35,482 nucleotides of DNA from Candidatus Omnitrophota bacterium (GTDB lineage: Bacteria > Omnitrophota > Gorgyraeia > Zapsychrales > Fredricksoniimonadaceae): the NCBI GenBank assembly GCA_013287965.1, contig JABDCU010000001.1, positions 69,910 through 105,391 of the forward strand, in the 5' to 3' direction. Position 1 is the first letter of the stretch. Each line of letters opens with the position of its first letter. A model generated the notes under the pieces. It was not told the DNA's origin and ran no database searches. It saw only the letters and a list, made by a program, of their open reading frames with translations. Made by a program: the position numbers and the translations under genes. This document shows positions 15,599-35,163 of the stretch, piece after piece.

Positions 15599-15616
15599 GA
15601 TCAAATGCCCATCGCC

Positions 15617-17644: not shown

Positions 17645-17651
17645 AAGCGAT

Positions 17652-17680: not shown

Positions 17681-17683
17681 CAG

Positions 17684-17714
17684 AAAAGGGGCGGATAAAA
17701 TATCCGCCCCTTTT
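17684..17714 (-). terminator. Intrinsic terminator of glnA
   Basis: A perfect 14-bp stem (AAAAGGGGCGGATA and its complement) with a 3-base loop starts 25 bases after the glnA stop. On the minus strand it is followed by TTTTCTGTT. The A/T flanks would also let it work in the other direction. Confidence 0.92.
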
Positions 17715-17738
17715 GTTTGCACAGACTTAGACTTGATG

Positions 17739-19880
17739 TTACGCATTCATCAACAGTATTTCCGCGTAACTCGGCAAAGGCCATATATTCGCCGGAACAA
17801 GTGCTTCCAGGGCATCAATGGACTCACGCAGCTTGGCCATGGCGCCACCGATCTTAAGGCCGTCGTGCTTTTCCAAGGTTGCCTCCAAGGCATCGCAATT
17901 GCTCAACGACTGGTCGATCAGGCCGGAGAGTTCCTTAAGCAGCTTCTTCTGCCCTGTGGTCTTTCCAGCGCTGCCCACCGTCTTGATGGTTTCAGCCAAC
18001 TGTTTTTGGTATTCAATGGCCGCGGGGACCAATTGGGTTTTAGCCATGGTCAGGGCGCAATCACCTTCCAGGACCTGGACCGTTGTATAAGCATGTTTAT
18101 TGATCTCATAACGGGAAGCCATTTCCACTTCACTCAAGACCCCATGCTTGACCATGACCTGGATATTTTTCTTGGCCTTGATCACTTCCAGGGCTTCGGG
18201 TGTGTTCTTCATATTGGGCAGGCCGCGCTTTTTAGCTTCGACTTGCCACTCTTGGATATACCCGTCTCCGTTATAAACAACCCGCTTATGTTTCTTAATG
18301 ATCGCCTGCAATACTTTTTGCAGGGATTCATTAAAATTCTTACCGGCCTTTTTATCTGCTTCTAATTGATCGCAGATATCACTCAAGGCTTCTGCCACGA
18401 TGGTATTGAGCACCATGTTAGAGGCAGAAGGATTTTGGTTGGAACCTACAGCACGGAATTCAAACTTGGCACCGGTGAAAGCAAACGGTGAAGTTCTATT
18501 GCGGTCAGTAGTGTCCTTCGCCAAGGACGGCAGGGCATCAACACCCACATGGATAGAACCGCCTTCTTTGGAAGACTTGGCCCCACCCTTTTCAATTTGC
18601 TCAATGATATCTGTTAATTGTGAACCTAGGAAGATCGACACGATCGCCGGAGGCGCTTCATTGGCACCCAGGCGATGATCGTTGCCCGCAGTGGCGACAG
18701 TGACGCGTAAAAGATCAGCGTAAGTGTCTACCGCCTGAATGACCGCGCATAACATGGCCAAAAATTTGGCATTTTCATGCGGGGTCTTGCCCGGATACAG
18801 CCAGTTTTTTCCGTCAGGACCGACCACTGACCAGTTATTGTGTTTGCCGGAACCATTGATGCCGGCAAAAGGCTTTTCATGTAAAAGACAGGTAAGCCCA
18901 TGCTTGTCCGCGATCTGGCGCATGAGGTCCATGACGATCATATTATGATCAACACCGCTGTTAAGGTCTTCATAGATCGGGGCCATTTCATATTGGGCAG
19001 GAGCGACTTCATTGTGACGGGTCTTGGAAGGGATCCCCAACGCCCACAAGGCGCGGTCCAGATCTTCCATGAAGCCCATGATGCGGGGCTTGATCGCACC
19101 GAAATAATGGTCTTCCTGCTGCTGATGCTTGGCCGGTTTTCTGCCGAACAAGGTGCGGCCGGTCTGTACCAGGTCCATGCGTGCTTGAAAATGGGCCTTG
19201 TCGATCAGGAAATATTCCTGCTCCGGGCCTAAAGTACAATAAGCGCGCTTGCCCTTGGTATCAATGCCAAAAAGGTTGGCCAAACGGCAAACTTGCTTGC
19301 TTAAAGCCACCATGGAGCGCAGCAAAGGCGTTTTCTTGTCCAGGGCCTCGCCATGATAGCCGATATAAAAGGTCGGGATACACAAGGTGGTCGCTTCCGG
19401 GCCTTCTTTAATAAAGGCCGGAGAAGTCGGGTCCCAGCCGGTATAGCCGCGGGCCTCAAAAGTCGCACGCAAGCCGCCGGAAGGGAAAGAAGAAGCATCC
19501 GGCTCACCCTGGATAAGGTTTTTACCGGAGAAATTCAAAACAACGCCGCCCGCATTGTCCCAATCAATAAAGGAGTCATGCTTCTCGGCCGTGACACCGG
19601 TCAAAGGCTGGAACCAATGGGTATAGTGAGTAGCGCCCTTGGCAACGGCCCATTTTTTCATGGCCTCGGCCACTTCATCAGCGATAGAAGCGTCTAATTT
19701 ACCGCCTTCTTTAATGGTCTTTTCGATGGAAACGTATGCCTTCGGAGAAAGCATTTCTTTCATCACCTTAAGACTAAACACGTTTTCGCCGAAATGTTCA
19801 GGCAAATGTTCACTGAAAGAACCGTTGCAGCAGCTCTCCTCAGCGCAAGCCTGAATGACCTCTTCGCGAGCTTGACTCAT
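17739..19880 (-). CDS. glnN: Type III glutamine synthetase
   Basis: Makes glutamine from glutamate, ammonium and ATP. The length of 713 residues is typical of type III enzymes (about 700-730) and much longer than type I (about 450-470). Visible motifs are [37 protein letters not shown] and [16 protein letters not shown], all characteristic of GSIII active-site segments. CNGSF near the N-terminus and the long C-terminal helical extension also fit. AAGGGGG lies 6 bases before the ATG. It has a private sigma70-type promoter, a leader with ANTAR-type stem-loops and a strong terminator, so it is monocistronic. The leader implies control by premature termination rather than only by a repressor. Confidence 0.97.
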
Positions 19881-20048: not shown

Positions 20049-23000
20049 CTAATTGGAATTGAGCATCATCTGGAAGGCGCCGCTGACGCTCAATTCCGAC
20101 GTGAAACGGACAATATTGAAGTTAAACCCTTTAAAACCGTCAGGCATCCTGGAGATGCCCGCTTCCCGGAAAAACGCCGGACTTGGACTGGAAGGCCGTT
20201 GGATGTATTGGGGCTGAAAGTTCAAATCAATCCCGCCTTCTTTTTTGACCGCAGAAAACATGGCAGCATTAACCGAGAGCCCTTTCTTTTGGGCTCCATT
20301 TATTTTTTTCGCCTCTTCTACGATCTTAATCTTTAGGGCTTTCCAATTCCCGACTTTTTCCCCTGAACCAACCGATGCATTTGTCTTATTATAAAGCCTG
20401 ACCATGATCTCTTTCATCCTCATATTGTCTGTCGCTCTGCCGTTAGACAAAAGCGGTCCCCAATAACGTGCGAGTGACAGGCAACTAATACTAAAGGTAA
20501 AAAACATATTTAAGAAATTAAAAGGGATAACCCGCGCAATGCTCAGTATGACTTGAACAATGAAAATGGCAGTCGGTATCAAAAAAAGCAGACGCCCGGT
20601 AAAACTGCTTATCCTTGTACTCTGACTCGTTTCTGCATATCCATAACTACCAAACCTTTCCCCTTGAAAAATGACCTCCTTCAATTTTTGTAGGCTAAGA
20701 GTGACATACCCATTAATGTCATTATACGTGCCCGGTCTGATCAAATTTCCTATCCCCATAAGGTCTCTAAGGTCGGGTCCTAACTTTTTCACTGGTTTAC
20801 GTGCCACAAAATCATAGCCCAAACTCCATGTTGTTATCCTATTGATCGCTTCTTTCTTTTCCCCCTTATGAAAATGTTCATTCACTGACGTGTTTACATT
20901 TACCCTTCCCTGGAGAATATCTAAATACTTTTCGACTTTAATCATCTTTAAGAACATTTTATCCCTATTCTCCAGGTACCGCTTCTGCTGGTCCGTGGTT
21001 AAATCCTTGGCCTTAAAACGATCCGCCAGGGCATTGACCGTTCTATTGGCAAGCTTCATAAAATACGCGTAACTGATCTGATACGCCTGATTTTCAGCTG
21101 ATGTTGCCTGGACATCCATCAGGTGCGGGGTATACGGTATTGCATCAAGGATGTTATCGGCAAGTCCGTTTATTTCTGCCTGAAGACCAAGCAACTGATC
21201 CGTCGAGTATCTGTCATTTCTTGAAAAATTCATCAATTTACCATACCAATCTATTATAAAATCAGCCGCCCTTGGTTCCACCCTATTACTATCAATTCCT
21301 CCGCCATTTCCATTCCCATTTTTATTATTCAGGGATTTCGCGTCTGAAACATTCATTAATTTTTCTAAACTGGAGAATTTTCTATCTTTCCAGTCCAAAA
21401 ACATTGGGACCAGGATAAATGCTGCCCCGCCTGTCATTAATAAAATACTTGTAAATAGGCCTGTATGGTATGTCCATCTCAGGGCTCTCCACCACCAGGG
21501 GCCTGTATAAATTTCCTGATTATTGGCATCCATGCGTGCAAGAATATCGTCCCTGTATTTGATTATTTTATCAACCATTTCTTTGTCTTCGACGGAAATG
21601 GCGGCTTTTTGGGTCAAATAATCATCCTGCCCATCAGGATTGTTCAGAGAATCCAAATCCTGGTCGATCTGGTTTAATAAATCGATTTGCGCGTCGGAAT
21701 AAACCGCCCCTCCCGCTGTATAAACATTTTTCTCCCCCACTTTAGGATAGATGTCCTTAAGAACAATGATGGCCCTTTTCAAGGCTATGAATTTGGCCTG
21801 TGCGTCCTGCGTAATGGTGCCGCCTTTAGTTAAACCTTTGAGCGCCTCGGTCAGCTTAATGGAAGAATAGGTGTTCTGGATAGTTGTCTGGATCCAGTCT
21901 TGATTTGTCCGGAGGTCCATGATGCCTAAGGCCACACGGAATATGCCCATGGCAGAGGGATTTTTAATGGTTTTGGCATCTTGCTTAATAGTGTTGATCT
22001 GATAAAGAAATAATTTTTCAATTTTCTTACGAAAAGCATCATCCGAAGACTCTTGTGCATATATCCGCAGCAGATCAATACGACCGTCTTGGCTCGCCAT
22101 CAACAGACCCAAAACTTTATCTAAAAGTAACGGGCTTTTTATCATTGACCGGGCCTCAACAATGCGGCCTAATTCAGAATTTGTAGCGGGTTTGAAAGTG
22201 ACTCCGTTGGCGGTGGTGCCTCCCATGGAATATTTTTCTTGACCCTCCTCATCAAGGCTGCCAAATAATCTCAAGCTGTCTTGAGCAGCCACCGTGCCGG
22301 GAACTTCCAGTAACGGATTTTTATCTGATTTTTCTGTTGGGTTTGCCTTGAGATCAGCCCTGGCCAAAGCATCAAATCTGTCAGTGGCTCCTTTTGTCAA
22401 ATCCGGCCGCAATTTTCCCATTTGCTCCCAATCAGGATCATCAAAGAACAGCTCGTAATCCTTGGGGAGTTCTTGTATTTGGCCCCGGGCAATATTAAGC
22501 TGATTAATATCGATTTCAAGTGAGTCCGTATTCTGGATTTCACCTTCAGTAAAGTGCCCCCTGTTGGCCTCTAAAAATATCCTGCGGATCCCTATATTCC
22601 TGATCCGGTCTCTTGATGTTTTAATCCGCTGATCATTCGGATGTTGACCTAAATACCTGTCCAGCTTATTGTATAATCTGGCGAGTTGATTAGTGTTCAA
22701 GTAATTACTATATAAGAACGGGGCTTGGCCAAGTCCTCGAGGGTCCTGGTCAATAAAGGTTAGTAATACACTTTCTGCATCCGTGAGGGAAGCAAGAATA
22801 GTGGTTGGGTATAAACCATTCAATACTTCAGGATAGTCCTTAAAAATATCACCCAGTTTTTGATACGCCAAATTAACCGCCTCCTTGCTGCCTTCCTTAC
22901 CCTGTCCCTTAATAATGACATTGATAAAGAAGGGCAAGTCCTTACGTTCAACCGCCGTCCTAAAAATCTCCTCCAATGCAACTGAAGAAGGATGGCCCAG

Positions 23001-26000
23001 GACGTAACCGGCAAGTTGTTGGGCAGATTCCTGGTCATTAGGAATGTCCTTGAGAAGATTCAGTGTTTGCTGACGATTCAAAGGATTAGAATCACCAGAC
23101 ACTCCCAGCGGATTATTATTTCTTAAAGCGCTGTGGGTGACAGTCTCCGGAGAGGGCCCCTCGATCTTGTCCTGGGCGGCCAGCGGCATGACAGCAAGAG
23201 CAATGATTGATACAAGTCCAAAGATAAAATTTCGAAGAGACGATGAAAATGCCAGCTGTGCTTTATTCCCCGTGCTCGGGCTGGCTTTCACCAAGGACCC
23301 ATCCCAAACTCCCATTTTTATTAAATTCTCCCGCTGCTCCAAATATTTTTCCTTAGGATCAAGGGACTCAATCGAACTCTTGGTTAAATCCCGCCGTTGG
23401 GTGGTATATGTATACTTCGGATAGACCCCCGGCTGACTGGCGGGTATTTCCCAAATTTCAAGAGCAGTTTGATATCCTTCCTGTGTCGTTTTAATTCCCT
23501 TACTGGATGAGTTATTGGCAATGACCGTTTGATGCAGTTCTTTTTCAAGTTCACCTTCTCTTTGCTTAATGATAGCGTCAGCTTTTTCTTTCTGTATGGC
23601 AAGACCTTGAATTTCTATATCCGTTAGTTGGTTTTTTATATCGAATCCAGCCTGTAACAAACCACTCGTCCCTGTAATACTTGAACCTCTTTCTATGGCA
23701 CCGCTACCATAAGGTTCATAAGGCAAACTGCTCATATTGGTATTCGGGACAAGCGATCCAACGGTCAAGGATGGTTTTTTCTTTAATCCCTCTTCCTTTA
23801 TTTCAGCCAGGACAACGTCCAAATCAGCCCAGGCCTTGCGTAACCGTGGGTCCGGGCTAATGTCCTTGGCCTGTTGGAAAATCGGCGCCATTCTACTGTC
23901 ACTCTTTGTGATCTTTTCAATGGCCTCATCCAGGCTTTTATAGCCCGCTTTTTTCAAAACTTTTTCCAAATCATACTTTGTCTTAAAACGCACCTTGGTG
24001 TTATCTCTGGGGTCATCGCGCCAAATACCATCTTTTTCATTATATGGATTAAAAATATTCTTCTTGTCCTTGTCATTCTTGATGAAATTAATCCCTGAAA
24101 ACTTTGATTTTTCAACAGTCCCGTCTGCCAGAAGCTTTGTAAGCATCTTCTGTTCTGCTTGCTGTGTGATTTCGGGGAAATCACCTGTCAAAGTCAACTG
24201 TGCAACCATGTGCGGACCACCCACTATTTTTTCACCCATCAAAAAATTAAGATCACTGGTCAATGCTTCCTCTTCAGCCTCTTTATCCTGGATCTGTTTT
24301 TGGACAGCAGGTATCTCCTTATCAATTTCTAACACCCTGGAATGTTCCGTGAGCTTATGCGCCTCTGCGGCTTGCGCCCCTCTGCGCGCCTCTTGCAAAT
24401 CATTTAGCAATGCCTCTGAATTTGCGATTCCTTGCTGGACGATGCCTAACTTGGTGTACAAAACTTTTGCAACATAGATTTGCTGTGCCAGCGCTGTTTG
24501 CAAAGCATACCCGGCGGAATTTTCCCCCGCGCTGTACACTGCTTCCTGCTTGCCTATTTTATCTCCGATGCGATCACTAACACTGCCCAAGACATTCCCA
24601 AAAACCAAAGCCCCGACATTATAGAGATCACCTACCGTTAACGCGCTTGTCACGCCATTAACTAACCTGCTGGCTCCGCCAAATCCGGATAATCCACCCT
24701 TGCCCCCGTAAAGACTGACGAATATGCTGGTTTTTTTAGCCCCGGGTATGAACTTCTCTATTGTGCTTAACATCACATTATAAAATTGTTCGGCCAGCAG
24801 TACTCCTTGATTTTCGGTCACCTTTTGGACTACTTGCTGGAGACTTACAATCTGCCCTTGGGGGGTATAATATTTGGGGGGCACTATTGGGGCAATGAAT
24901 TGACCAACGGTATTTTGTGCAAAAAGTTGAGAAGCAAACCCTTGGAGCCCATCAGGTGGCGGCGGTAAAGGGGCGCCCCATGTTGAAGATAATAATGCAT
25001 CCTCTGGAATAAACCCCGTGGCCAATGCGATTTCTTTTTCTTTATCAGTTAACAATTTAAGGGGAAATCTCATACCCTTACGCAAAAAATGGTTTGGATC
25101 ATGCATGGTCACTTCAACAGAATACGCCGGACCTATTACCGTTGATACGACGTGTGGGGTTGGGTCAACAGCTGTCACTTCACCTAACACCGGACCTGCC
25201 GGAGCCATGCCCTCGACAATAGCCCCACGCTGAACTCCTGCAGAATAATAAATAGAATATGCGCTGCCCTTGAGGTCCCCCAACAAAACCTTGTTATTAT
25301 TAGTAGTAACCACCGCGCTCTCTTTTTGATAAACATCTGTTCCATTCTTTCCTGTCCAGGTAACAACGCCGTCCTGGTCAGCCCTGATCTCCAAATGAGA
25401 AATCGTATCTTGAAGGTCTTTTGCTTCTGCCTGCAGACGGCGTATATTAGAATTGATCTTGTCCACTTCATCCCGATTGATAATGACGCCCCCATTAGGA
25501 AAAGAAGCTCGAGTAAGCTTTATCTTTTCACCCTCCATTTGAGTAAGCACCGTTTCCAGTTGTATTGCAAAAGGTTCACGGACACCTTTGACCATGACCT
25601 GCCCCCTTTTGACCTCATCTCCCTGATTAACTTTGAATTCATACGAATCCAGCGCCGGGACATGCTTGGTGTACTCATTAATTGGAGGAACCGGCACATC
25701 GGTTGTTGCCCTTCCCTTAAAAATGGGGATATCACGACCCTCGTCAGACGCATAAAAGGTGGCGTGGAATTTCACCTTTTGGCCCGGAGATATGGGTGTC
25801 TGCGGCGTCACAATGAAACTCACCCATATATTTTGGACAGAAGAAGCCGACTCAGACCAGTTAAACCAAAAAGTGCTTTCAGCAGGTTCTCCGTCAATAG
25901 TAACAGCAGCCTTTTGAAAATAAACATTGTATGGGATTTCAATATCAAACCGCGATCTTTTCCTGTCATAATATCCTGCCAGGACTGTGCCAGGACCTAC

Positions 26001-28511
26001 TGTATCACCTTCTGCGACTTTAAAATCGTTAACCGTAGAATTATACGGCGCTTTTTTTACGCCTGATCGTTCTATGAGCTTGGCATTGGCTAATTGCCCT
26101 TGTAAATCTAAAAGCTTTAGTCTGGCATTGACCACATCCAGGGCGCTGGCTCCACCTTCCTGCTGCGCTTCTTCTGTTTCCTTTAACGTCTTTTCTTGGT
26201 CACTGATATTGCCATTTAATTCTTCAATGTGGTCCTTATTTTTTTGGTCAAGAACGGTTAGTACCCTTGTGTCATTATTATAATTTTTTTCCTGCACATT
26301 CAAGCCGGTAATGACCCCTCCGGTTTGAGTCACTATTTCATTTTTCACGTCAGCAGCCTGCATTATTTTATAGGGTGCATTAGAGGGGTATGAATAGACA
26401 ACTTTGTTATGTGTAAAGGAAGGCACCTTTCCTGACTCTCTGGCGAACCGAGGCGGCGGTGGGGCCGCTCCGCCGGTTGATTCCCCCCTCGTTTCACTAG
26501 AAGCTGGAGCTGTAAATGTTCCTGATTTAGCATCTGCAGCTGCTTGCGGTGCAGGCGCCATTGGTGGAGCTATTTTTGGTGCAATTACTGCTGGCTTAGG
26601 CGGAACTGGTATATCTACTATTGCTTTAGGAACTGCTGACACAGCTACTGTTGGCTTAGGGGCCGCTGACACAGTTATTGTTGGTTTAGGAGATGCTGAC
26701 ACAGTTACTGTTGGTTTCGAAATTACCAGCGCAGTTACTGTTGACTCAGGCGCTGCTTCTGGTGCAACTTCTGCTGGTAGAAGCGTTGGTGGTGCAGATG
26801 AGGGAGCGGCTTGTTGGGGCGCTGGAGAAGCCTGGGGTTGAGAAATTGGTAAAGAGGCAGCTGGCAGTGCTGTATTGTCAGCTATACTGTCAGCTGCTCG
26901 AGAAGTACCCTGTCGTCTTTGGTCGGGTACTTGTTGACTTGCTGGCTTAGGCATTACTACTGGTGCAGTTGGTGACGCAGCTGCTGCTGGTGCAGTTGCT
27001 AGCGCTGATGCAGATGAGGCTCCCGGCGTTGGAATAATAAATTTATCACCCTCATATATTAATTCAAGTCCGTTCCTCTTGTACTTGATAGGATTTTGTA
27101 TATTACCTTTCACCGGATCCCCAACCTTTGCCACCACGCCATTCTCACCCCACAAGGACTTATGGTAAATCTTCCACATAAGATCTGAAAAAGTTTTATC
27201 CCCTTGCTGCACTTCTATTTGGGTTTTGCCATCAGGCAATGGTGTGCGTATTTCACCGTGGGCTGTTACAGTCGCCCCCAGAGAAAGCGCCACGAACACA
27301 AGAACTTTAAACAAGGTCTGCTTACTCAATTGTGCCGCATTCGCCGGCAATACCAACGGATCCTGGCCGATAGAAAGAAGCTTGACCCTCATATAACCAA
27401 AAAATTTATCTTTTAACTCAACAAAATGTTCTTTTAGCGCGGCAAATTCAGGCACCTGTATATTAAGCATCCACGCCGAGGAATCTCCAAAGTACTCCCC
27501 GCCGGAAAAATACTTGCGCGGGACCACTTGATTAGTGACCGGATCCACGTCTTCGCGGATATAGTTATAGGCGCCTTTTTTGAAAATACGCAAATACTGT
27601 TTATATATCTTTTCCGTGGCACCTTTGTCCACGTCATTAACGCCGGAAATTTTCTTCTTATTGACATACACATCAGAGAGGATATTGCGTTTCAACTCAC
27701 GCTTAAACCAATCAGCCAGGACCAGGGAATAAAAGACCTGGCGCACCGGGGCAAAATTCTTCCCCTCATTGACCTCTTTTTGCAGCTCAGGCAATATGAT
27801 CTCTTTGGTGATCTCGGAAGTCAATGTATGGGCCCTTCTGGCCCCTTTGTCCGCCCTGGCCATATTTTTCTTAAGCGCCAGATAATCTTCTTCCAACATC
27901 ACCTTAAGATGCGTGTCGCCCACCATGGCACTGTCACCCATGTCATAGACAACGGCCTTATCCGGCACGATCCAGACCTTGTTATACGTATTGATCGGCA
28001 GGTCCGTTGTCCCGTATTTTTCAAACGCTTTTTTGTAAACCTGCGCCCAGAATTTCTTACCCAGGGAGGTTTCGGGATAGGTCAACGAAGAAGATATTTG
28101 CTTCAAGACCTTGTCCTGGTCAAGCAGGGTGTTTCCGGCATTGGTCAGGGCCAATTCATTGGGAATGATGCGGCTTTTTTCATAAGGAGAGAGATTGACC
28201 CAAAGATCTTCTTCGGGAATGGTCAGGAAGGTGAGAAAATATTTGACCAGAAGGGACGTTTCCTTTTGGTCAAGCGCCTGGCGGTTGCCTGAATCAACCA
28301 CAAAATCAAATTCAAAGGGTTTGTTTGGATAAACACGCATCCCGCGTAAAACGGGGAAAGAATACGGGGTAGAAAGGTCAATATAGTTGGGGGATGGTAA
28401 AAAAGGCGTGCCTTGGGCCTGGACCTGTTCCAGGTTATTCTGGACCAATAAACAGGCTAATAAAAGACAAATTACGCGGAAAAACCTGGATTTCTTCTTC
28501 AGGATAGCCAT
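20049..28511 (-). CDS. Giant envelope protein: LysM-like, adaptor-like, TolC-like and helical-repeat regions
   Basis: Single uninterrupted frame of 2820 residues. Residues 1-32 are a signal peptide; LLAC at 17-20 is a marginal lipobox. 45-380 is a conserved-looking block (TIPEEDLWVNLSPYEK, PRKYFSGGEYFG) that I recall from Omnitrophota giant proteins. 398-417 is a second signal-like helix ending VTA. 430-495 is LysM-like (VQQGDKTFSDLMWKIY, YEGDKFIIP). 496-700 is a Pro/Ala/Val stalk with 10-residue repeats (KPTVTVSASP). 700-1165 resembles HlyD-type adaptors: coiled coils around 760-810 and 980-1040, and sandwich-hybrid motifs such as KVAEGDTVGPGTVL and ADQDGVVTW. 1225-1430 and 1610-1690 resemble the two halves of TolC-type proteins. 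1756-1779 is a third signal-like helix. 1800-2340 is an alpha-helical repeat. Membrane helices lie at about 2350-2371, 2639-2660 and 2662-2683. No strong ribosome site is seen. Function unknown; a role in envelope transport or anchoring is inference. Confidence 0.9.
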   Translation of the reverse strand: MAILKKKSRFFRVICLLLACLLVQNNLEQVQAQGTPFLPSPNYIDLSTPYSFPVLRGMRVYPNKPFEFDFVVDSGNRQALDQKETSLLVKYFLTFLTIPEEDLWVNLSPYEKSRIIPNELALTNAGNTLLDQDKVLKQISSSLTYPETSLGKKFWAQVYKKAFEKYGTTDLPINTYNKVWIVPDKAVVYDMGDSAMVGDTHLKVMLEEDYLALKKNMARADKGARRAHTLTSEITKEIILPELQKEVNEGKNFAPVRQVFYSLVLADWFKRELKRNILSDVYVNKKKISGVNDVDKGATEKIYKQYLRIFKKGAYNYIREDVDPVTNQVVPRKYFSGGEYFGDSSAWMLNIQVPEFAALKEHFVELKDKFFGYMRVKLLSIGQDPLVLPANAAQLSKQTLFKVLVFVALSLGATVTAHGEIRTPLPDGKTQIEVQQGDKTFSDLMWKIYHKSLWGENGVVAKVGDPVKGNIQNPIKYKRNGLELIYEGDKFIIPTPGASSASALATAPAAAASPTAPVVMPKPASQQVPDQRRQGTSRAADSIADNTALPAASLPISQPQASPAPQQAAPSSAPPTLLPAEVAPEAAPESTVTALVISKPTVTVSASPKPTITVSAAPKPTVAVSAVPKAIVDIPVPPKPAVIAPKIAPPMAPAPQAAADAKSGTFTAPASSETRGESTGGAAPPPPRFARESGKVPSFTHNKVVYSYPSNAPYKIMQAADVKNEIVTQTGGVITGLNVQEKNYNNDTRVLTVLDQKNKDHIEELNGNISDQEKTLKETEEAQQEGGASALDVVNARLKLLDLQGQLANAKLIERSGVKKAPYNSTVNDFKVAEGDTVGPGTVLAGYYDRKRSRFDIEIPYNVYFQKAAVTIDGEPAESTFWFNWSESASSVQNIWVSFIVTPQTPISPGQKVKFHATFYASDEGRDIPIFKGRATTDVPVPPINEYTKHVPALDSYEFKVNQGDEVKRGQVMVKGVREPFAIQLETVLTQMEGEKIKLTRASFPNGGVIINRDEVDKINSNIRRLQAEAKDLQDTISHLEIRADQDGVVTWTGKNGTDVYQKESAVVTTNNNKVLLGDLKGSAYSIYYSAGVQRGAIVEGMAPAGPVLGEVTAVDPTPHVVSTVIGPAYSVEVTMHDPNHFLRKGMRFPLKLLTDKEKEIALATGFIPEDALLSSTWGAPLPPPPDGLQGFASQLFAQNTVGQFIAPIVPPKYYTPQGQIVSLQQVVQKVTENQGVLLAEQFYNVMLSTIEKFIPGAKKTSIFVSLYGGKGGLSGFGGASRLVNGVTSALTVGDLYNVGALVFGNVLGSVSDRIGDKIGKQEAVYSAGENSAGYALQTALAQQIYVAKVLYTKLGIVQQGIANSEALLNDLQEARRGAQAAEAHKLTEHSRVLEIDKEIPAVQKQIQDKEAEEEALTSDLNFLMGEKIVGGPHMVAQLTLTGDFPEITQQAEQKMLTKLLADGTVEKSKFSGINFIKNDKDKKNIFNPYNEKDGIWRDDPRDNTKVRFKTKYDLEKVLKKAGYKSLDEAIEKITKSDSRMAPIFQQAKDISPDPRLRKAWADLDVVLAEIKEEGLKKKPSLTVGSLVPNTNMSSLPYEPYGSGAIERGSSITGTSGLLQAGFDIKNQLTDIEIQGLAIQKEKADAIIKQREGELEKELHQTVIANNSSSKGIKTTQEGYQTALEIWEIPASQPGVYPKYTYTTQRRDLTKSSIESLDPKEKYLEQRENLIKMGVWDGSLVKASPSTGNKAQLAFSSSLRNFIFGLVSIIALAVMPLAAQDKIEGPSPETVTHSALRNNNPLGVSGDSNPLNRQQTLNLLKDIPNDQESAQQLAGYVLGHPSSVALEEIFRTAVERKDLPFFINVIIKGQGKEGSKEAVNLAYQKLGDIFKDYPEVLNGLYPTTILASLTDAESVLLTFIDQDPRGLGQAPFLYSNYLNTNQLARLYNKLDRYLGQHPNDQRIKTSRDRIRNIGIRRIFLEANRGHFTEGEIQNTDSLEIDINQLNIARGQIQELPKDYELFFDDPDWEQMGKLRPDLTKGATDRFDALARADLKANPTEKSDKNPLLEVPGTVAAQDSLRLFGSLDEEGQEKYSMGGTTANGVTFKPATNSELGRIVEARSMIKSPLLLDKVLGLLMASQDGRIDLLRIYAQESSDDAFRKKIEKLFLYQINTIKQDAKTIKNPSAMGIFRVALGIMDLRTNQDWIQTTIQNTYSSIKLTEALKGLTKGGTITQDAQAKFIALKRAIIVLKDIYPKVGEKNVYTAGGAVYSDAQIDLLNQIDQDLDSLNNPDGQDDYLTQKAAISVEDKEMVDKIIKYRDDILARMDANNQEIYTGPWWWRALRWTYHTGLFTSILLMTGGAAFILVPMFLDWKDRKFSSLEKLMNVSDAKSLNNKNGNGNGGGIDSNRVEPRAADFIIDWYGKLMNFSRNDRYSTDQLLGLQAEINGLADNILDAIPYTPHLMDVQATSAENQAYQISYAYFMKLANRTVNALADRFKAKDLTTDQQKRYLENRDKMFLKMIKVEKYLDILQGRVNVNTSVNEHFHKGEKKEAINRITTWSLGYDFVARKPVKKLGPDLRDLMGIGNLIRPGTYNDINGYVTLSLQKLKEVIFQGERFGSYGYAETSQSTRISSFTGRLLFLIPTAIFIVQVILSIARVIPFNFLNMFFTFSISCLSLARYWGPLLSNGRATDNMRMKEIMVRLYNKTNASVGSGEKVGNWKALKIKIVEEAKKINGAQKKGLSVNAAMFSAVKKEGGIDLNFQPQYIQRPSSPSPAFFREAGISRMPDGFKGFNFNIVRFTSELSVSGAFQMMLNSN
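26635..26754. repeat. 30-bp tandem repeats inside the giant gene
   Basis: Three consecutive 30-bp units (26635-26664, 26665-26694, 26695-26724) and a degenerate fourth, each beginning GCTGACACAG or similar on the plus strand. They encode the 10-residue repeats KPTVTVSASP, KPTITVSAAP and KPTVAVSAVP of the stalk. Unit number could vary between strains. Confidence 0.85.
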
Positions 28512-29098: not shown

Positions 29099-30391
29099 TT
29101 AGTCTAAGATTGTATAAGCACGCTCATGATGCTGGCTCAAATCAAGGCCGATCACTTCATCTTCGGCAGATGCACGCATACCGATGGTTTTGTCAATGAT
29201 AAAACAGATGATCAGGGTGACAATAAAGGTATAGATGGTAGTGACAGCGCAGCCTTTGGCCTGGGTCATAAACTGGCCGGCGTTCCCGTCAAACACGCCT
29301 GAACCAGCGGAGTTAACGACCTTCACGGCAAATAATCCGGTGGCTAAAGCACCCCATAGCCCGCCGATATAATGCACGCCAAAAGCATCCAGGGTGTCAT
29401 CATAGCCGAATTTCGGCTTGACAAACGCCACCATGCAATAGCAGAACACGCTGACTAAGAAGCCGATCCACAATGAACCTCCGACATCCACAAAACCTGA
29501 AGCCGGTGTGATGGCGACTAAACCAGCCACAGCACCTGAACAAGCCCCAACCAGGGTGGGTTTGCCGGTAAAGATCCATTCACAAGCAGCCCAGCTGATG
29601 GCCGCGGCAGCTGTTGCTGTATTGGTCACAACGAAAGCACTGGTTGCCAACGCTCCGGCGGAAATCGCTGAGCCGGCGTTAAAACCAAACCAGCCGAACC
29701 ATAAAAGGGAAGCACCGATCATGACAAAAGGCACGTTATGCATGCCCGGCTTGTCAGTACCAAGGCGTTTACCCAAGTATAAAGCTGTTGCTAAACCCGC
29801 GATACCGGCATTCATGTGCACGACTGTACCACCGGCGAAATCCAAAACACCCCAGTGATTTTCAATCCCGTCATGTGACCAGACCATGTGGGCAACCGGG
29901 CAATAGACAACAAGCAGCCATAACACGGTAAACCAAACCCAGGCCGAGAACTTGACCCGTTCGGCAAAAGAACCGATGACCAGCGCCGGTGTAATGACCG
30001 CGAACATGCACTGGAAGATCATGTAGCATTGATTAGGAACAGTTGAACCATAGGAAGTGGTAGGGTCCCACTTGGGATCAGACGTCCAGTGTTCAGGGGT
30101 ATACATGGATACATTATGTAACATGAACCAATCCAAACCTCCGACAAACTGCCCTAGCCAGCCGTGACCAGGGCCAAAGGCCAAACTGTATCCAATGACT
30201 ACCCATAGCACACTGACTATGGCCAAACACATAAAACATTGCATCAATATACTGTTGACGTTTTTACGTCTGACCATGCCTCCGTAGAAAAGGGCCAGGC
30301 CTGGTGCCGTCATCGCCAAAACAAGGGCGGATGAGGCCAATACCCATGAAATGTCCCCATCATTGAGTTGTGGTGCTGGTGTTGTTCCCAT
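29099..30391 (-). CDS. amt: Ammonium channel Amt
   Basis: Inner-membrane channel of 430 residues for ammonium/ammonia. The N-terminus ([20 protein letters not shown]), [12 protein letters not shown] and the twin-histidine region ([11 protein letters not shown] and [12 protein letters not shown]) are typical of Amt/MEP/Rh proteins. The C-terminal tail with [17 protein letters not shown] matches the conserved Amt tail that couples gating and PII binding. AGGAGGT lies 9 bases before the ATG. It is preceded by a 40-codon membrane-peptide gene (27-base gap) and followed by the PII gene, all behind the leader at 30575-30693. Confidence 0.97.
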
Positions 30392-30418
30392 TACGTTTTA
30401 CCTCCTGTTTTTTACTGG

Positions 30419-30541
30419 TTAAACAATATGTGCCCGCAAAGCCCAAAACAAGCCCAAAACCAACGCCACTTGGACCATGGTGAACAAAAATGCCGCCATA
30501 CGTTCTACTTGATGTATAGATTGTGTCGGGGTAATTTTCAT
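30419..30541 (-). CDS. Small single-helix membrane protein upstream of amt
   Basis: Forty residues, MKITPTQSIHQVER followed by one hydrophobic helix (from about residue 15 to 35) and a short tail RAHIV. A good ribosome site, AGAGAGG, lies about 9 bases before the ATG at 30541, stronger than for any upstream in-frame start (the frame is open to 30625 through hairpin sequence). The stop is 27 bases before amt. I do not recognise the family. The position in the amt transcript suggests a regulatory peptide or small subunit of the channel, but it could also act as a translated leader peptide. Confidence 0.6.
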   Translation of the reverse strand: MKITPTQSIHQVERMAAFLFTMVQVALVLGLFWALRAHIV

Positions 30542-30559
30542 CTGAATACCCTCTCTTTC

Positions 30560-30574
30560 TGCGCCTTTGGCGCA
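30560..30574 (-). promoter_or_regulatory. Short hairpin before the small membrane protein
   Basis: TGCGCC-AAA-GGCGCA forms a 6-bp stem just upstream of the AGAGAGG ribosome site. It has no U-tract after it, so it is not a terminator and could affect mRNA stability or ribosome access. Confidence 0.4.
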
Positions 30575-30582
30575 ATAAAAAA

Positions 30583-30619
30583 TCCGGTTCTCATGTGCTT
30601 CCAAGCACATAAAACCGGA
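30583..30619 (-). terminator. Second terminator-like hairpin in the amt leader
   Basis: On the minus strand TCCGGTT and ATGTGCTT pair with AAGCACAT and AACCGGA around a short loop, followed at once by TTTTTTATTG. It lies before the first gene of the unit, so it would act as a second attenuator in series with the ANTAR-type element. Confidence 0.7.
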
Positions 30620-30644
30620 CTTCAATGCCCTAAAAATAAAAAAA

Positions 30645-30693
30645 TCCCCTTTTAAGTCTGCTGCTTTCTCTAAAAGAGGACGTGTCTATGCCC
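30645..30693 (-). promoter_or_regulatory. ANTAR-like leader attenuator of the amt unit (degenerate)
   Basis: Minus-strand RNA has GGGC-AUAGACAC-GUCC (30678-30693), then a hairpin UCCUCUUUUA/UUAAAAGGGGA (10 pairs, 30645-30680) followed by UUUUUUUAUUUUU. GUCC is shared by both structures, as in the glnA and DUF2934 leaders. The loops deviate: the first is 8 bases, starting with AUAGAC (A1, G4), and the second is enlarged and starts AAAGCA after only a weak GAG/CUU stem. The architecture matches the other two leaders, but ANTAR recognition is less certain. Confidence 0.55.
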
Positions 30694-30752
30694 GCGGATC
30701 TGTCTGGAACATCATTGCTCCGGACTTTTTTCAATTTTCAAACTATACTGCA

Positions 30753-30781
30753 AATATACCTGCCCCAAAAACAATTGTCAA
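30753..30781 (-). promoter_or_regulatory. Sigma70-type promoter of the amt unit
   Basis: Minus-strand TTGACA (30776-30781) and TATATT (30753-30758) with 17 bases between, 30 bases downstream of the DUF2934 stop. The predicted start near 30746 gives a leader of about 205 bases. Confidence 0.8.
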
Positions 30782-30810
30782 GTAAATTTTATGAGCCTTG
30801 TGCAACTAAT

Positions 30811-31026
30811 TTATGCGCCTTTGACAATTTGCTCTGCTGCCAGCCAATCCTCGACGTCATAACCATGAGCACAGCCGCGCGCTACAAAAAGCTGATAAGC
30901 TGTTTCCTGCACCTTTTGATTGAAGTCTTCTTTGGGATAAGCTATTTGTTCCGAAGGGTTTTCAAACCTGTTTTTGGATGCGGACGATTTGGGCGCCGTC
31001 CTTTTAAGTGTTGTTGCTTGTCTCAT
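30811..31026 (-). CDS. DUF2934 domain small protein
   Basis: Protein of 71 residues. The second half, QKVQETAYQLFVARGCAHGYDVEDWLAAEQ (written as two motifs: ETAYQLFVARG and GYDVEDWLAAE), matches the DUF2934 pattern. That family has no established function and is often found near nucleic-acid or stress genes. The N-terminal half is basic and Ser/Thr-rich. GGAGGG lies 4 bases before the ATG. The gene has its own strong promoter and the clearest ANTAR-type leader in the window, so it belongs to the same regulon as glutamine synthetase and Amt. No terminator follows, so transcripts may read into the amt leader. Confidence 0.8.
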   Translation of the reverse strand: MRQATTLKRTAPKSSASKNRFENPSEQIAYPKEDFNQKVQETAYQLFVARGCAHGYDVEDWLAAEQIVKGA

Positions 31027-31054
31027 AAAACCCTCCGAATTTAGAAATAAAAAA

Positions 31055-31098
31055 TCCTCTCTTTAACATCACTGTTTTAGAGAGGACATCCTTGCCCT
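31055..31098 (-). promoter_or_regulatory. ANTAR-type leader attenuator of the DUF2934 gene
   Basis: Minus-strand RNA: stem 1 AGGGC-AAGGAU-GUCCU (31083-31098), hexaloop with A1 and G4. The hairpin at 31055-31086 has arms UCCUCUCU/AGAGAGGA and tip AAC-AGUGAU-GUU, a hexaloop with A1 and G4, followed by UUUUUUAUUU. The UCCU segment belongs to both stem 1 and the terminator arm, so they are mutually exclusive. Both loops match the ANTAR consensus, and this is the best example of the three. Confidence 0.82.
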
Positions 31099-31113
31099 TT
31101 AAATTACAACCGT

Positions 31114-31143
31114 AATATACACCCGATAAGGCAATTCTGTCAA
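31114..31143 (-). promoter_or_regulatory. Sigma70-type promoter of the DUF2934 gene
   Basis: Minus-strand TTGACA (31138-31143) and TATATT (31114-31119) with an 18-base spacer. The start would be near 31107, giving a leader of about 80 bases. It lies just after the ANTAR gene's stop. Confidence 0.78.
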
Positions 31144-31158
31144 TAAAAATTTTTGGAC

Positions 31159-32388
31159 CTACTTTTGCAATTCCGCCATTAAAATGACTGACTCGGCGAT
31201 GTCCTTCATGGAGCGGCAGGTGTCCATGCTTTTCTTGTGGATAAGGCGGTACGCGGCTTCTTCGGAAAGATTGTTCATCTTCATCAAGATACCTTTGGCC
31301 CGCTCAATGAGTTTACGGGTTTCCAGAGCTTCGCGGGCTTTGAGGGCTTCTTGCATCAATTTGGTGTTCTCTACCGCCACCGCGGCTTGGTTGGCAACTA
31401 TCTGCAACACGCTGATCTCTTCGTCATCAAAGTGATGCGGCTGTTTGGTGTACACGCTGATAACCCCAATGGCTTTATCCTTAACGATCATGGGTACGGC
31501 CACCATGGAAGTCAGCCCTTCTTTAACGGCCAGGTCGCGATAAGCATATTTTTCTTCCTTGCTGACATCGTAGACACTCGCGGGCTTTTTGGATTTAATG
31601 ACAGAGCCGATCAGGCTGTTCTCTACCTTAATATTGGGCTTTAGCTTATACTCCGAACTTAAGGACTGGGTGGCCTTGATCGAAAGCTCTATGCCTTTTT
31701 CATCCAAAAGCATGATGGAACAAATTTTGGAATTCAGCATCTCGGCAGTGACCACCACGATCAGGTTAAGGATCTCGTCTAAATAATCCTCACTGGTGAT
31801 CGAGCGGCTGACCTTGATCAAGGAGTCAAATTGCAGGGCTTTTTTCTTTGTCTCTTCAAAAAGCCGGGCATGCTCAATGATGCCGCCGACTTGTTTGGCG
31901 ATCATGTCGATCAGGTTAACTGTCTCCGCTGAATAATCCTGCTGGCTTTTATGCTGGACGTTCACGACCCCGATGGCTTTTCCCTTATAGATGACCGGAA
32001 CGGATAAAAAAGCCTCATAACGGTCTTCAGGGAGCACATCGAAACTTTTAAAACGCGGGTCGCGGTAGGCGCGTGATTTGATGGCCACTGTCTTGTTTTC
32101 ACGGGCCACCCATCCGGTGATCCCTTCGCCGGTTTTCAAGACCACATTGCCCAGTTCTTTTTTATGCGCGGTCTTGGAGGCCATCAGCACCAGGTTCTGC
32201 TTGCTTTCATCAAAAAGATAGATAAAAACAGAGTCCGCGTCCGTCATTTCGGTCACGATCTTGACAATTAACTGCAGGGTGAGATTTAGATCCAGCTCGG
32301 AAGAAGCGATGTCAACGACATTGCGCAAGATCTGCAGCTCTTGGGTACTGGTCACGCTTAATTTCTTATTTTTCAATCTCTCGGGCAT
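31159..32388 (-). CDS. GAF-GAF-ANTAR antitermination regulator
   Basis: Cytoplasmic protein of 409 residues. Two GAF sensor domains occupy about 34-175 and 200-342 (each with the VPM/VPVIYKGKAIGVV-type strand), joined by a helical linker. The C-terminal ANTAR domain is at about 349-405, with ETRKLIERAKGILMKMNNLSEEAAY and the MDTCRSMKDIAESVI helix. ANTAR domains bind paired hexaloop hairpins in leader RNA and prevent termination. No receiver domain is present, so the signal is probably a ligand or redox state sensed by GAF rather than phosphorylation. It lies beside two leaders with fitting RNA targets. The only start supported by a promoter is the ATG at 32388. Confidence 0.93.
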   Translation of the reverse strand: MPERLKNKKLSVTSTQELQILRNVVDIASSELDLNLTLQLIVKIVTEMTDADSVFIYLFDESKQNLVLMASKTAHKKELGNVVLKTGEGITGWVARENKTVAIKSRAYRDPRFKSFDVLPEDRYEAFLSVPVIYKGKAIGVVNVQHKSQQDYSAETVNLIDMIAKQVGGIIEHARLFEETKKKALQFDSLIKVSRSITSEDYLDEILNLIVVVTAEMLNSKICSIMLLDEKGIELSIKATQSLSSEYKLKPNIKVENSLIGSVIKSKKPASVYDVSKEEKYAYRDLAVKEGLTSMVAVPMIVKDKAIGVISVYTKQPHHFDDEEISVLQIVANQAAVAVENTKLMQEALKAREALETRKLIERAKGILMKMNNLSEEAAYRLIHKKSMDTCRSMKDIAESVILMAELQK

Positions 32389-32394
32389 TCGAAT

Positions 32395-32423
32395 AAGATA
32401 CCATAAGCCCCACGTTCCCTCAA
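32395..32423 (-). promoter_or_regulatory. Possible near-leaderless promoter of the ANTAR gene
   Basis: Minus-strand TTGAGG (32418-32423) and TATCTT (32395-32400) with 17 bases between; the ATG at 32388 begins 6 bases after the -10 box. No ribosome site is seen, which fits a leaderless message. Confidence 0.45.
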
Positions 32424-32439
32424 GTACTTTAGTATCCTC

Positions 32440-32467
32440 TTGACAATATTTTGTTTATTTCTATGAT
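32440..32467 (+). promoter_or_regulatory. Promoter of the nuoJKLM genes, near-leaderless
   Basis: TTGACA (32440-32445) and TATGAT (32462-32467) with a 16-base spacer. The start is predicted near 32474, a few bases before the ATG at 32481. It is divergent from and close to the ANTAR gene promoter. Confidence 0.6.
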
Positions 32468-32480
32468 GAAAGAATACAAT

Positions 32481-33002
32481 ATGTCCCCCTATTTCTTTTA
32501 TCTTTTTGCCGCTATCCTCATTTTTGCAAGCCTTTCGGTCGTATTGGCGCGCAATCCTTTGTATAACGTCCTGTCCCTGGTCGTTGCGATTTTCTCCTTG
32601 TCCTGCCTTTTTGTACTGCTGGAAGCATTTTTTGTAGGCATGGTCCTTCTCCTGGTTTACGCGGGTGCTGTGCTGGTTTTCTTCCTCTTTGTGGTGATGT
32701 GCCTGAATCTTAACACAGTTACCTTGACCTCTGCCCAACAAAGCCGCTTTCGCTGGCTTGGCACTATTGTGGGATTGATGTTCGCCTCCTCCTTTGGTTT
32801 AGCCATCAAAAGTTTTATCAGGGCCCAGACCATGGAACCATCGTCGATCCGCGGGACCATCGAGGTCATCGGCAAGATCCTATTTACAGATTATTTATTG
32901 CCTTTTGAATTAACATCGCTTCTTTTATTGATCGCGATCTTTGGGATCGTTTCTCTGGCCCAGGGCGCGCTCAGCACCGGCAAGGACGTTGAAAACGCAT
33001 GA
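32481..33002 (+). CDS. nuoJ: NADH-quinone oxidoreductase subunit J
   Basis: Membrane subunit of respiratory complex I, 173 residues from the ATG at 32481 (E. coli NuoJ is 184). The N-terminus MSPYFFYLFAAILIFASLSVVLARNP, here split as FYLFAAIL and VVLARNPLYNVL, and the TM3 region VYAGAVLVFFLFVVM are typical. Upstream in-frame starts at 32463 and 32466, and a TTG at 32451, overlap the predicted promoter and add atypical residues, so 32481 is preferred. The stop overlaps the nuoK start as ATGA. No nuoA-I genes precede it here. Confidence 0.93.
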   Translation: MSPYFFYLFAAILIFASLSVVLARNPLYNVLSLVVAIFSLSCLFVLLEAFFVGMVLLLVYAGAVLVFFLFVVMCLNLNTVTLTSAQQSRFRWLGTIVGLMFASSFGLAIKSFIRAQTMEPSSIRGTIEVIGKILFTDYLLPFELTSLLLLIAIFGIVSLAQGALSTGKDVENA

Positions 33003-33301
33003 TCTCTCTTGGCTCCTATTTGATCTTAAGCGGCATTGTCTTTTCCATCGGGCTGGTGGGTGTCATGACCAGCCGCAATGTGCTTAAGGTGCTTTTGTCT
33101 TTGGAACTTTTGTTGGCCGCTTCCAACCTTTCCTTTGTGGCCTTCTCCAAATTTAACGGCGATTATGCGGGGCAATTGATAGTATTTTTTGTCATCCTGG
33201 TGGCCGCGGCAGAAGTGGCCATAGGGCTTGCCATCATCGTCGTGATGTACCGTCGCCTTTCCACGATCCAGGCTGATGAGTTAAGGACAATGAAATGGTA
33301 A
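32999..33301 (+). CDS. nuoK: NADH-quinone oxidoreductase subunit K
   Basis: Complex I membrane subunit of 100 residues with three helices, exactly the family length. The conserved membrane glutamates for proton transfer are present at Glu36 (LLSLELLL) and Glu72 (VAAAEVAIG). It overlaps nuoJ by 4 bases and nuoL by 7, so translation is coupled. Confidence 0.97.
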   Translation: MISLGSYLILSGIVFSIGLVGVMTSRNVLKVLLSLELLLAASNLSFVAFSKFNGDYAGQLIVFFVILVAAAEVAIGLAIIVVMYRRLSTIQADELRTMKW

Positions 33302-35163
33302 ATCCTCACTTAGTTTGGATCGCTTTTTTTGCACCGCTCGTTGCCTGTGTTCTCATTACATTCTTTTTCCTGCGCAATAAAACATTCAGCTCCCTGACGG
33401 CCATCGCCGGTATCTTAACTTCTTTTGTTTGCAGTTGTTTGGTCTTTACTCAAATCTTTCAAGTTAACCCTCCGGCCCAACTCCAGCAATCCCTGACCTG
33501 GATCTCAATTGATGGCTTGACCATTAATTTTGGTTTTCTGATGAACCCGTTGGCCATCATGATGCTCTTGATCGTCACTGGTGTAGGCAGTGCTATTTTT
33601 ATTTACTCCCGTGGGTATATGGATGAGGACCCCAGCTCTCCAAGATTCTTTGCATTCTTAAGCCTCTTTGCCTTCTCCATGATCGGCATTGTCCTGTCCA
33701 ATAATTTTATCCAGCTTTTCATGTTTTGGGAACTGGTAGGCTTATCTTCGTACCTGCTTATCGGTTTCTGGTATGCCAAACCTTCGGCCGCGGACGCGGG
33801 GGTCAAGGCTTTCATGGTCAATCGTTTGTCTGATTTCGGATTTCTTTGCGGGATCATCATGTTATGGGGCCTTTCTGATACGGGTGCGGGCCGCAGTTTT
33901 CAATTCACGGATTTGGTCAATGTGGTCCCTCATTTAGACCCTTCCTTGCTCACGATCGTAGGCCTTTTGCTTTTCTGCGGGGTGATGGGAAAATCTGCCC
34001 AGGTACCTTTACACGTTTGGCTCATTGATGCCATGGAAGGTCCTACACCGGTCAGCGCCTTGATCCACGCAGCCACCATGGTGGCTGCCGGTATCTATCT
34101 TTTGGCCCGCACCTTTTTTATTTTCGAACCTTCGGCAACAGCACTCACCTTTATCGCGTATACAGGCGCCATCACTTCACTCATGGCTGCCATACTGGCC
34201 ATCGTTGAGAATGATATTAAAAGGATCCTGGCTTATTCAACACTTAGCCAATTAGGCTTGATGGTCATGGCCTTAGGCTTAGGCGGGCCCATGCAAGGGA
34301 TGTATCACCTGACAACCCATGCTTTCTTTAAAGCGCTCTTGTTCTTGGGCGCTGGTTCTGTGATCTATGCTTTACATCATGAACAGGATATTTGGAAAAT
34401 GCGCGGCCTCTTAAAGAAAATGCCCATCACCGGCATCACCTTTCTCATCGGGACCCTGGCCCTCTGCGGTATTTTCCCCTTAAGCGGATTTTGGAGCAAG
34501 GACGGCATCCTGGCCCTGGCCTTTGAAAATAATATCGTACTTTACTTGATCGCGGCAACAGCCAGCGGCTTAACAGCCTTTTACATGGGACGCTTGTTCT
34601 TTGTAGCATTCTGGGGCGCTCCGGCAGCATCTCACGGGAAAAAGCATGGGCATGATCATGACGTCCACGAATCTCCGGCGGTGATGACCTTGCCCCTGGT
34701 CTTTTTAGCCATTCTTTCCGCTATCGGAGGATACATTGGGATCCCGCATTACTTATTCCCACAAGAAGCCCCTGACAATCTGAATATGAAGGTCGCTGTT
34801 ATTTCTTCTGTCGTTGCCCTTTTAGGGTTAGGCTTCTCCTATATGATCTATGGTAAACGCACGGAAAATGATCCCTTGGTAACAAAACTTGGCGGTTTCT
34901 ATGCCGTCTTAAAAAATAAATTCTATTTTGACATTGTTTATGGATGGTACGTTGACCATATCCAGCAGAATGTGGCCCTTTTCTTGGCGCGGGTTGAAAA
35001 AGAGATCATCGTCCGTTTGTGCGTTGGCGGGCTTACAAACCTGGCCCGTAACGGCGGCAAGACTTTTCGTTATTTGCAAAACGGCCTGGTCCAGTTCTAT
35101 GCCCTGGTCTTTGTTCTTGGCGTTATATTATTATTTCTCTGTTTGATGCTTAAAATTTTATGA
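33295..35163 (+). CDS. nuoL: NADH-quinone oxidoreductase subunit L
   Basis: Antiporter-like proton-pumping subunit of complex I, 622 residues (E. coli 613). Key residues are visible: Glu146 in FMFWELVGLSSY, Lys233 in GKSAQVPLHVW, His258 in EGPTPVSALIHAATMVAAG, His338/His342 with Lys346, and Lys402 in SGFWSKDGI. The C-terminal part includes the segment that forms the long lateral helix and the last membrane helix. A loop at about 447-458 is unusually rich in His (SHGKKHGHDHDVH), which could bind metal. The stop overlaps the nuoM start as ATGA. Confidence 0.97.
   Translation: MVNPHLVWIAFFAPLVACVLITFFFLRNKTFSSLTAIAGILTSFVCSCLVFTQIFQVNPPAQLQQSLTWISIDGLTINFGFLMNPLAIMMLLIVTGVGSAIFIYSRGYMDEDPSSPRFFAFLSLFAFSMIGIVLSNNFIQLFMFWELVGLSSYLLIGFWYAKPSAADAGVKAFMVNRLSDFGFLCGIIMLWGLSDTGAGRSFQFTDLVNVVPHLDPSLLTIVGLLLFCGVMGKSAQVPLHVWLIDAMEGPTPVSALIHAATMVAAGIYLLARTFFIFEPSATALTFIAYTGAITSLMAAILAIVENDIKRILAYSTLSQLGLMVMALGLGGPMQGMYHLTTHAFFKALLFLGAGSVIYALHHEQDIWKMRGLLKKMPITGITFLIGTLALCGIFPLSGFWSKDGILALAFENNIVLYLIAATASGLTAFYMGRLFFVAFWGAPAASHGKKHGHDHDVHESPAVMTLPLVFLAILSAIGGYIGIPHYLFPQEAPDNLNMKVAVISSVVALLGLGFSYMIYGKRTENDPLVTKLGGFYAVLKNKFYFDIVYGWYVDHIQQNVALFLARVEKEIIVRLCVGGLTNLARNGGKTFRYLQNGLVQFYALVFVLGVILLFLCLMLKIL

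Follow-up and report, generated by a model that had tools for sequence, protein, structure and literature searches.

A giant open reading frame of an Omnitrophota bacterium as a candidate polyprotein from a family with a common header, a common tail and lineage-specific junction motifs

Polyproteins are the rule in many viruses and single curiosities in bacteria. The window analysed here, a stretch of 35,482 nucleotides from a Candidatus Omnitrophota bacterium (contig JABDCU010000001.1), contains a single open frame without a stop (20049-28511, minus strand) encoding a protein of 2820 amino acids, in the interior of which two hydrophobic stretches resemble signal peptides. This locus raises the question of what a signal peptide could do in the middle of a chain, and whether the chain is one protein or several. 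The idea of an earlier note, that secreted units are made as one chain and cleaved at these stretches, is partly supported by the present analysis and much extended by comparison with relatives of the protein in its own genome (1.52 Mb, 70% complete) and in other genomes, all of them MAGs as far as the records say. The parts of the protein are as follows.

20049..28511 (-): whole ORF, 2820 aa, an unbroken frame
28416..28511 (-): N-terminal signal peptide, residues 1-32 (MAILKKKSRFFRVICLLLACLLVQNNLEQVQA-Q), assigned from sequence and from the signal-like beginnings of paralogues with an intact start
27498..28415 (-): header (N-)domain, residues 33-338, its end set by the invariant RKYFSGG present in 24/24 aligned own-genome copies
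27330..27341 (-): candidate junction 1, residues 391-394, NAA-Q, a Q variant of [DNS]xAM, proposed from counts at the orthologous site; pLDDT <50
27261..27320 (-): stretch 1, residues 398-417, internal and signal-peptide-like by its pattern in orthologues
23259..27260 (-): unit 2, residues 418-1751, an Ala/Pro-rich linker followed by a HlyD-type adaptor and TolC-like region (about 705-1751)
23256..23267 (-): candidate junction 2, residues 1749-1752, NKA-Q; the equivalent place reads NQAM in G006, SAAQ in G005 and DHAL in G004
23175..23246 (-): stretch 2, residues 1756-1779, internal and signal-peptide-like, found in 4/14 orthologues
20262..23174 (-): unit 3 (C unit), residues 1780-2750, with membrane helices at 2352-2370 and 2641-2659
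20259..20270 (-): junction 3, residues 2748-2751, NAA-M, a canonical [DNS]xAM eight residues ahead of GGID
20052..20237 (-): GGID tail, residues 2759-2820, with 26 matches in the own genome

In a 19-residue Kyte-Doolittle scan with a threshold of 1.6 only four internal segments of the protein stand out: 399-417 (1.88), 1761-1779 (2.19) and the two helices of unit 3. The first two are the hydrophobic stretches of the earlier note, which had described them correctly as preceded by basic residues and followed by VTA-H or PLAA-Q, and had placed them to within one codon. In stretch 1, which ends at 417/418, residues K397 and K402 are placed immediately ahead of the core or at its beginning, and R1760 occupies the corresponding position in stretch 2, which ends at 1779/1780. 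Both present a basic n-region, a hydrophobic core and small residues at -3 and -1, a pattern commoner here than in membrane helices. The basic-then-hydrophobic form of stretch 1 is kept in all 17 orthologues (fetched from 14 relatives, then from further ones), and 11 of the 17 passed a signal-peptide rule, as against 1/30 C-terminal membrane helices of the same orthologue ORFs and 0/19 helices of the window's ammonium transporter and NuoL-like protein (p = 7e-6); the rule was devised after the sequences had been seen and is strict, since 25/86 true N-terminal signals of the family pass it. A signal model trained on the family's N-terminal signals could not distinguish either stretch from a membrane helix, with scores of 8.4 for stretch 1 and 11.7 for stretch 2, as compared with 8.3-25.6 (median 18.4) for held-out signals and 0.4-16.8 for the helices of the two transporters.

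Stretch 2 is less widespread. A hydrophobic segment was found at its place in 4/14 orthologues, all of the same genus, three of them Sec-like behind NKA-Q, NQA-M and SAA-Q and one Tat-like behind DHA-L; in the remaining 10/14 unit 2 runs uninterrupted into unit 3. Units that join unbroken are expected on the same side of the membrane, which weakens the reading of stretch 2 as a simple membrane helix. Homologues without hydrophobicity, which the earlier note had held to speak against it, thus exist for stretch 2 and were not seen for stretch 1. The other objection that it had foreseen, burial in a soluble core, found no support for stretch 1: the AF2 model shows a low-confidence helix (397-410) after two stretches with pLDDT <50 (334-371 and 391-394), and nothing in it suggests that stretch 1 is buried in the header.

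The topological paradox that had been pointed out, namely that plain membrane helices would leave the adaptor/TolC-like region in the cytoplasm, is real. At E up to 0.01 unit 2 of the orthologues matches the Pfam families HlyD_3 (7/10), HlyD_D23 (7/10) and OEP, the TolC family (8/10), and its match in the PDB is MacA (1.5e-9); the window protein alone gives OEP only, with 18.9 bits, under the cut-off of 22. Judged by these orthologue profiles, unit 2 should belong in the periplasm. It resembles tripartite efflux and type 1 secretion systems in combining both families, and differs from them in that adaptor and outer-membrane channel form one chain behind a header and an internal signal. The LysM label of the earlier note was not borne out: at E up to 0.05 Pfam detected no family in residues 420-501, which follow stretch 1. 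The window ORFs scanned included no transporter ATPase that could serve the adaptor/TolC unit. The neighbouring genes (window 4040-19880 and 29099-35163) include those for an NAD synthetase, a glycosyltransferase, an amidotransferase, a methyltransferase, a type III glutamine synthetase, an ammonium transporter and a GAF-ANTAR protein.

Orthologues or partial relatives of the C unit occur in 10/293 genomes of the class, the own genome counted, and no relative was found in the PDB. One partial relative (G017) follows a header domain without the middle unit; another (G134) is part of a 1271-aa ORF that begins with an N-terminal signal of its own, and the search for a header in that genome gave none. 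The separate-gene homologues that the earlier note had called for did not turn up: among 55 relatives, and for the complete C unit among the 293 class genomes, neither the middle unit nor a complete C unit forms a stand-alone gene. The orthologue of G005 is split just past stretch 2, in another reading frame. Two orthologues (L057_3/L057_1 of G005 and L056 of G026) are broken by frame changes or by runs of N in the assembly.

The window protein has relatives that share its two ends. A search of the own genome returned 25 places, the window protein itself and 24 others that match its N-terminal part only (residues between about 5 and 402) with roughly 50% identity, in ORFs of 296 to 3139 aa. 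The header of about 340 residues, aligned in 24 copies including that of the window, ends with RKYFSGG in every row and becomes variable right after it. The window protein has the family's N-terminal signal, header and GGID tail. The header is present in 71/237 Omnitrophota genomes and absent from 166/237, and one genome has 59 matches; the 80 header loci in named records belong to Omnitrophota or to loosely assigned MAGs, one being labelled Bacteroidales. Among 87 independent header ORFs 62 end in the GGID tail and 17 are cut by the end of the locus. The core of the header is modelled by AF2 with pLDDT >90; Foldseek gave no match at E up to 0.001, the best hit by VIA having Z 4.1 over 115 residues, and no convincing Pfam match was found. 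The tail model is poor (pTM 0.22). As a short conserved tail on otherwise unrelated proteins it may be compared with C-terminal sorting domains such as the CTD of T9SS. Short recurring inserts in some header copies (L013, L025, L029 and others), e.g. VIPAKAGIQN and HSERSEES, look like translated genomic repeats.

Between header and tail the bodies share little and carry unrelated units, cytosolic enzymes among them. In an own-genome paralogue (L010:2-9343, minus strand) a signal peptide is followed by a 'glycolysis chain' of triosephosphate isomerase, a GAPDH-like domain, an aldolase and a nearly complete enolase, enclosed by header and tail; the enolase starts right after NKA-M and keeps SHRSGETED and KVNQIGT, which we take to be intact enolase motifs. 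Another chain (L133) contains six PRTase-like units in tandem, each about 300 aa long and 45-54% identical to one another; five of them start at a canonical junction and the remaining one at DRA-I, with one more junction ahead of the tail; of three methyltransferase units in L139, two start at a junction and one does not. Further bodies contain PGK, enolase, glutamate dehydrogenase, transketolase, alanine dehydrogenase, PPDK, radical SAM enzymes and methyltransferases, and also HTH domains, MutS, a histidine-kinase ATPase, response-regulator-like parts and acyl carrier proteins; a scan of 56/87 bodies found no family in more than two of them. Where checked, chain-borne enolase or PGK stands beside an ordinary copy (enolase in G000; PGK in G431, G433 and G447), the second-copy PGKs being carried by ORFs of 2730, 2405 and 1162 aa; the enolase of G433, an incomplete genome, was found only in its chain. 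Being often second copies, the chain enzymes may not work in the cytoplasm at all. Two further arrangements were observed: an enolase in body residues about 560-1000 of L125_6 (L125) that looks circularly permuted, with the C-terminal barrel ahead of the N-terminal domain, and a header ORF (L019:940-3873, plus strand) in which five consecutive acyl-carrier-protein matches and the beginning of a PEPCK were detected, several of these parts being separated by [P/L]SAAM junctions.

What recurs in these bodies is a short motif. In the own genome the dipeptide AM is about three times commoner in the bodies than expected. Of its 158 occurrences there, 121 have D, N or S at -3, where 27.0 would be expected (p = 3e-60), and among 360 dipeptides tested in this way the next best reached only p = 1e-3. 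Because rows are related, such p-values are on the optimistic side; the shift and shuffle controls given below address position, not kinship. The independent set of 87 ORFs from other genomes gave [DNS]xAM in 148/277 against 49.7 expected, and ORFs outside the family showed no excess (15 vs 11.1 and 48 vs 53.5 expected). At the DNA level the own genome has 126 copies of the pattern in the coding frame, whereas the remaining five frames have 2-4 apiece (169 vs 4-21 in other genomes), and the codons vary; the motif is thus one of protein, and a DNA-level element such as a recombination or mobile scar was rejected on the same data. Its serine is always encoded by AGY (29/29, overall 856/2314), which we ascribe to single-step change from Asn or Asp codons.

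The motif lies between units. It is found within 80 aa after the header in 19/23 own-genome bodies (4.1 in random windows) and in 41/82 independent ones (5.2 in random windows), and often directly ahead of the GGID tail. Inside 29 Pfam stretches totalling 3238 aa there was no junction against 11.4 expected (0/5000 shifts); the test of domain edges alone is weak (9 vs 5.1 expected, 306/5000 shifts). Ends of homology blocks fall within 6 aa of a junction in 11/110 cases against 3.6 (0/1000 shifts), and the blocks shared between different chains hold fewer junctions than expected (10 vs 21.7, 5/1000 shifts). Signal-like segments stand behind a junction in 11/41 cases against 2.6 by chance (0/2000 shifts), whereas other hydrophobic segments do so in 9/77 against 5.3 (159/2000 shifts). 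At the level of the family, then, the chains have what is expected of polyproteins: units that correspond to complete proteins, and recurring sites between them and outside domains. Against the polyprotein reading count the 30/41 signal-like segments without a junction near, and DSAM at residues 193-196, a match to the motif inside the window protein's own header. In L020 a histidine-kinase-type ATPase domain and a junction are immediately followed by a borderline Tat signal (TIGR01409, 16.2 bits, cut-off 16.7); the same profile gave no match in L065.

Two other genomes use another sequence at this place. Twenty-six independent bodies have no xAM at all, and in xAM-poor bodies the top tripeptide is SSP (42 vs 8.4 expected). 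In 12 bodies of two genomes SSP occurs 38 times against 2.0 expected, always followed by V, I or L, and xAM only 4 times; 8 bodies outside the discovery set have 12 SSP against 1.20 expected, 12/12 followed by V, I or L, and 48 control ORFs have 3 against 2.36. Usage of [DNS]xAM or SSP differs by genome, and some genomes show neither: in header ORFs of the PEAR, CAIOTT and CAIUQE records (L099, L114, L090, L102, L111 and others) neither xAM nor SSP is in excess, and a third junction motif may exist there. A switch of the whole site between lineages with its place kept is what one expects of a recognition site together with its enzyme.

At both stretches the window protein has the Q variant, NAA-Q and NKA-Q, each directly ahead of its stretch. 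By script, [DNS]xA[MQ] was found between header and stretch 1 in 11/17 orthologues (shuffles: mean 1.13, maximum 6), a count that misses the DAAQ of L053, where the automatic header end was set too late. The Q variant occupies the orthologous site 1 in 8/17 against 0.56 expected, these rows being related and not independent. No enrichment of AQ was found family-wide (25/125 vs 21 expected), and a change of M to Q as a family-wide variant is not supported. The case for the window protein itself would thus rest on a Q variant that is supported only at orthologous site 1.

We consider it probable that the window ORF encodes a polyprotein that is cut at the junctions, each stretch thereby becoming an N-terminal signal peptide. 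Signal peptide with header, adaptor/TolC unit, C unit and GGID tail would be made as one chain; where the earlier note suggested three units, there are probably four with the tail. While the chain is being translated or shortly afterwards, a putative sequence-specific endoprotease would cut it on the cytoplasmic side at the short junctions, which in this lineage read [DNS]xA-[M/Q], the cut bond being presumably A-M or the one after M. As encoded, both stretches are internal, and they reach an N-terminal position only after such a cut, which would make stretch 1, and in this genus also stretch 2, the beginning of a new protein. Sec would then export the freed unit and signal peptidase would remove the stretch at VTA-H or PLAA-Q, while units elsewhere that lack a signal (enolase, triosephosphate isomerase, methyltransferases, acyl carrier proteins, HTH regulators) would stay in the cytoplasm. 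The cytoplasmic side is favoured because a chain that is being exported needs no second signal, and a signal behind a junction is useful only if the cut precedes export; cutting there would also explain cytosolic enzymes in chains led by a signal peptide, which would make no sense uncut.

An internal signal behind an exported domain enters the membrane wrongly oriented for signal peptidase. The proposal that signal peptidase acts alone at the internal signals agrees with the signal-like ends of stretch 1 in 11/17 orthologues; with the header already outside, it would need the segment to form a hairpin, for which about 20 residues seem short, and we hold it to be very improbable. A polyprotein is strongly suggested by the family-wide junction motif, and because of the wrong orientation a cut ahead of each signal is needed, for which the motif supplies a candidate. 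Such units could also arise from internal translation starts, with the M of xAM or a codon ahead of the stretch as start codon, and the junction M does coincide with natural starts, e.g. that of enolase. Shine-Dalgarno-like sites, however, precede 12/119 junction M against 135/570 other internal M and 9/22 true starts, and none of 10 orthologues has one at stretch 1; there the orthologues have GTC, GTA, ATA or ATT as often as ATG, and the SSP lineages have no M. On the Shine-Dalgarno and codon data internal starts were rejected, and we give them next to no credence.

Two readings deserve more weight than these. The whole chain might pass through Sec and be cut afterwards, in the periplasm, at the surface or in a compartment, with header and tail as sorting signals, second-copy glycolytic enzymes that work or moonlight outside, and stretches that are leftovers or hairpins. 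The signal-like beginning of intact-start members, the constant, sorting-like appearance of header and tail, and the presence of the L010 enolase and the three PGKs beside ordinary copies are all in keeping with this; it leaves unexplained why units have signals of their own, two of them Tat-like, and why HTH, histidine-kinase, MutS and response-regulator-like parts should be exported, and we regard it as unlikely. That the chains are uncut multidomain proteins, in which junctions are bound or modified linkers or marks of module shuffling and stretches are membrane helices or hairpins, appears more doubtful still. No cut has been observed, the domains are clearly shuffled, and any linker motif would be depleted inside domains, as linkers lie between them; yet there is no reason for a passive linker to conserve four residues as a motif that in other genomes switches wholesale to SSP[VIL], the varied codons show that it is no DNA scar, and cytosolic enzymes sit behind a signal peptide. 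Cutting at the junctions on the cytoplasmic side, ahead of export, is the reading that we retain.

Parallels to such an arrangement are partial. The Bradyrhizobium japonicum precursor FbcH (cytochrome b / c1) reportedly belongs to the 'prokaryotic polyprotein precursors'. As is proposed for the window family, FbcH has one bacterial ORF, two mature proteins and an internal signal peptide ahead of the second; unlike it, the internal signal follows a membrane protein that ends in the cytoplasm, so that no junction is needed, and it is a single case without a header/tail family or a junction motif. Viral polyproteins likewise join their units by short sequence-recognised sites with a lineage-specific consensus, whereas here the host is bacterial, dozens of different chains occur per genome, and no protease was recognised inside the chains.

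Giant ORFs with several membrane helices have been described in Velamenicoccus and relatives within the Omnitrophota (PMC10066038). The present family resembles them in host phylum, great length and membrane helices, and 141 positions of the C unit have a counterpart in a 37,731-aa ORF of G144:C3 (L180-L186), which has 44 hydrophobic segments. That ORF differs from the family in that xAM is not enriched (5 vs 8.2 expected); the only header in the same genome is a distant one and belongs to a different ORF. Among the published articles covered, PMC10066038 and PMC12057145 included, no report of Omnitrophota polyproteins or of the header family was found.

Considered for the family as a whole, the evidence inclines us to think that these bacteria make a sizeable part of their proteome, including extra glycolytic enzymes and envelope machinery, as signal-led polyproteins with common header and tail, from which a co-evolving protease cutting at lineage-specific sites would free the buried signals. 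There would be 25 to 59 such chains per genome, with the same header, mostly the same tail and sites that vary with the lineage. If true, this would amount to a new form of organisation for gene expression and export in bacteria, and it would explain why such ORFs have resisted annotation. It also provides exact candidate cut sites and points to a putative site-specific protease that could become a tool.
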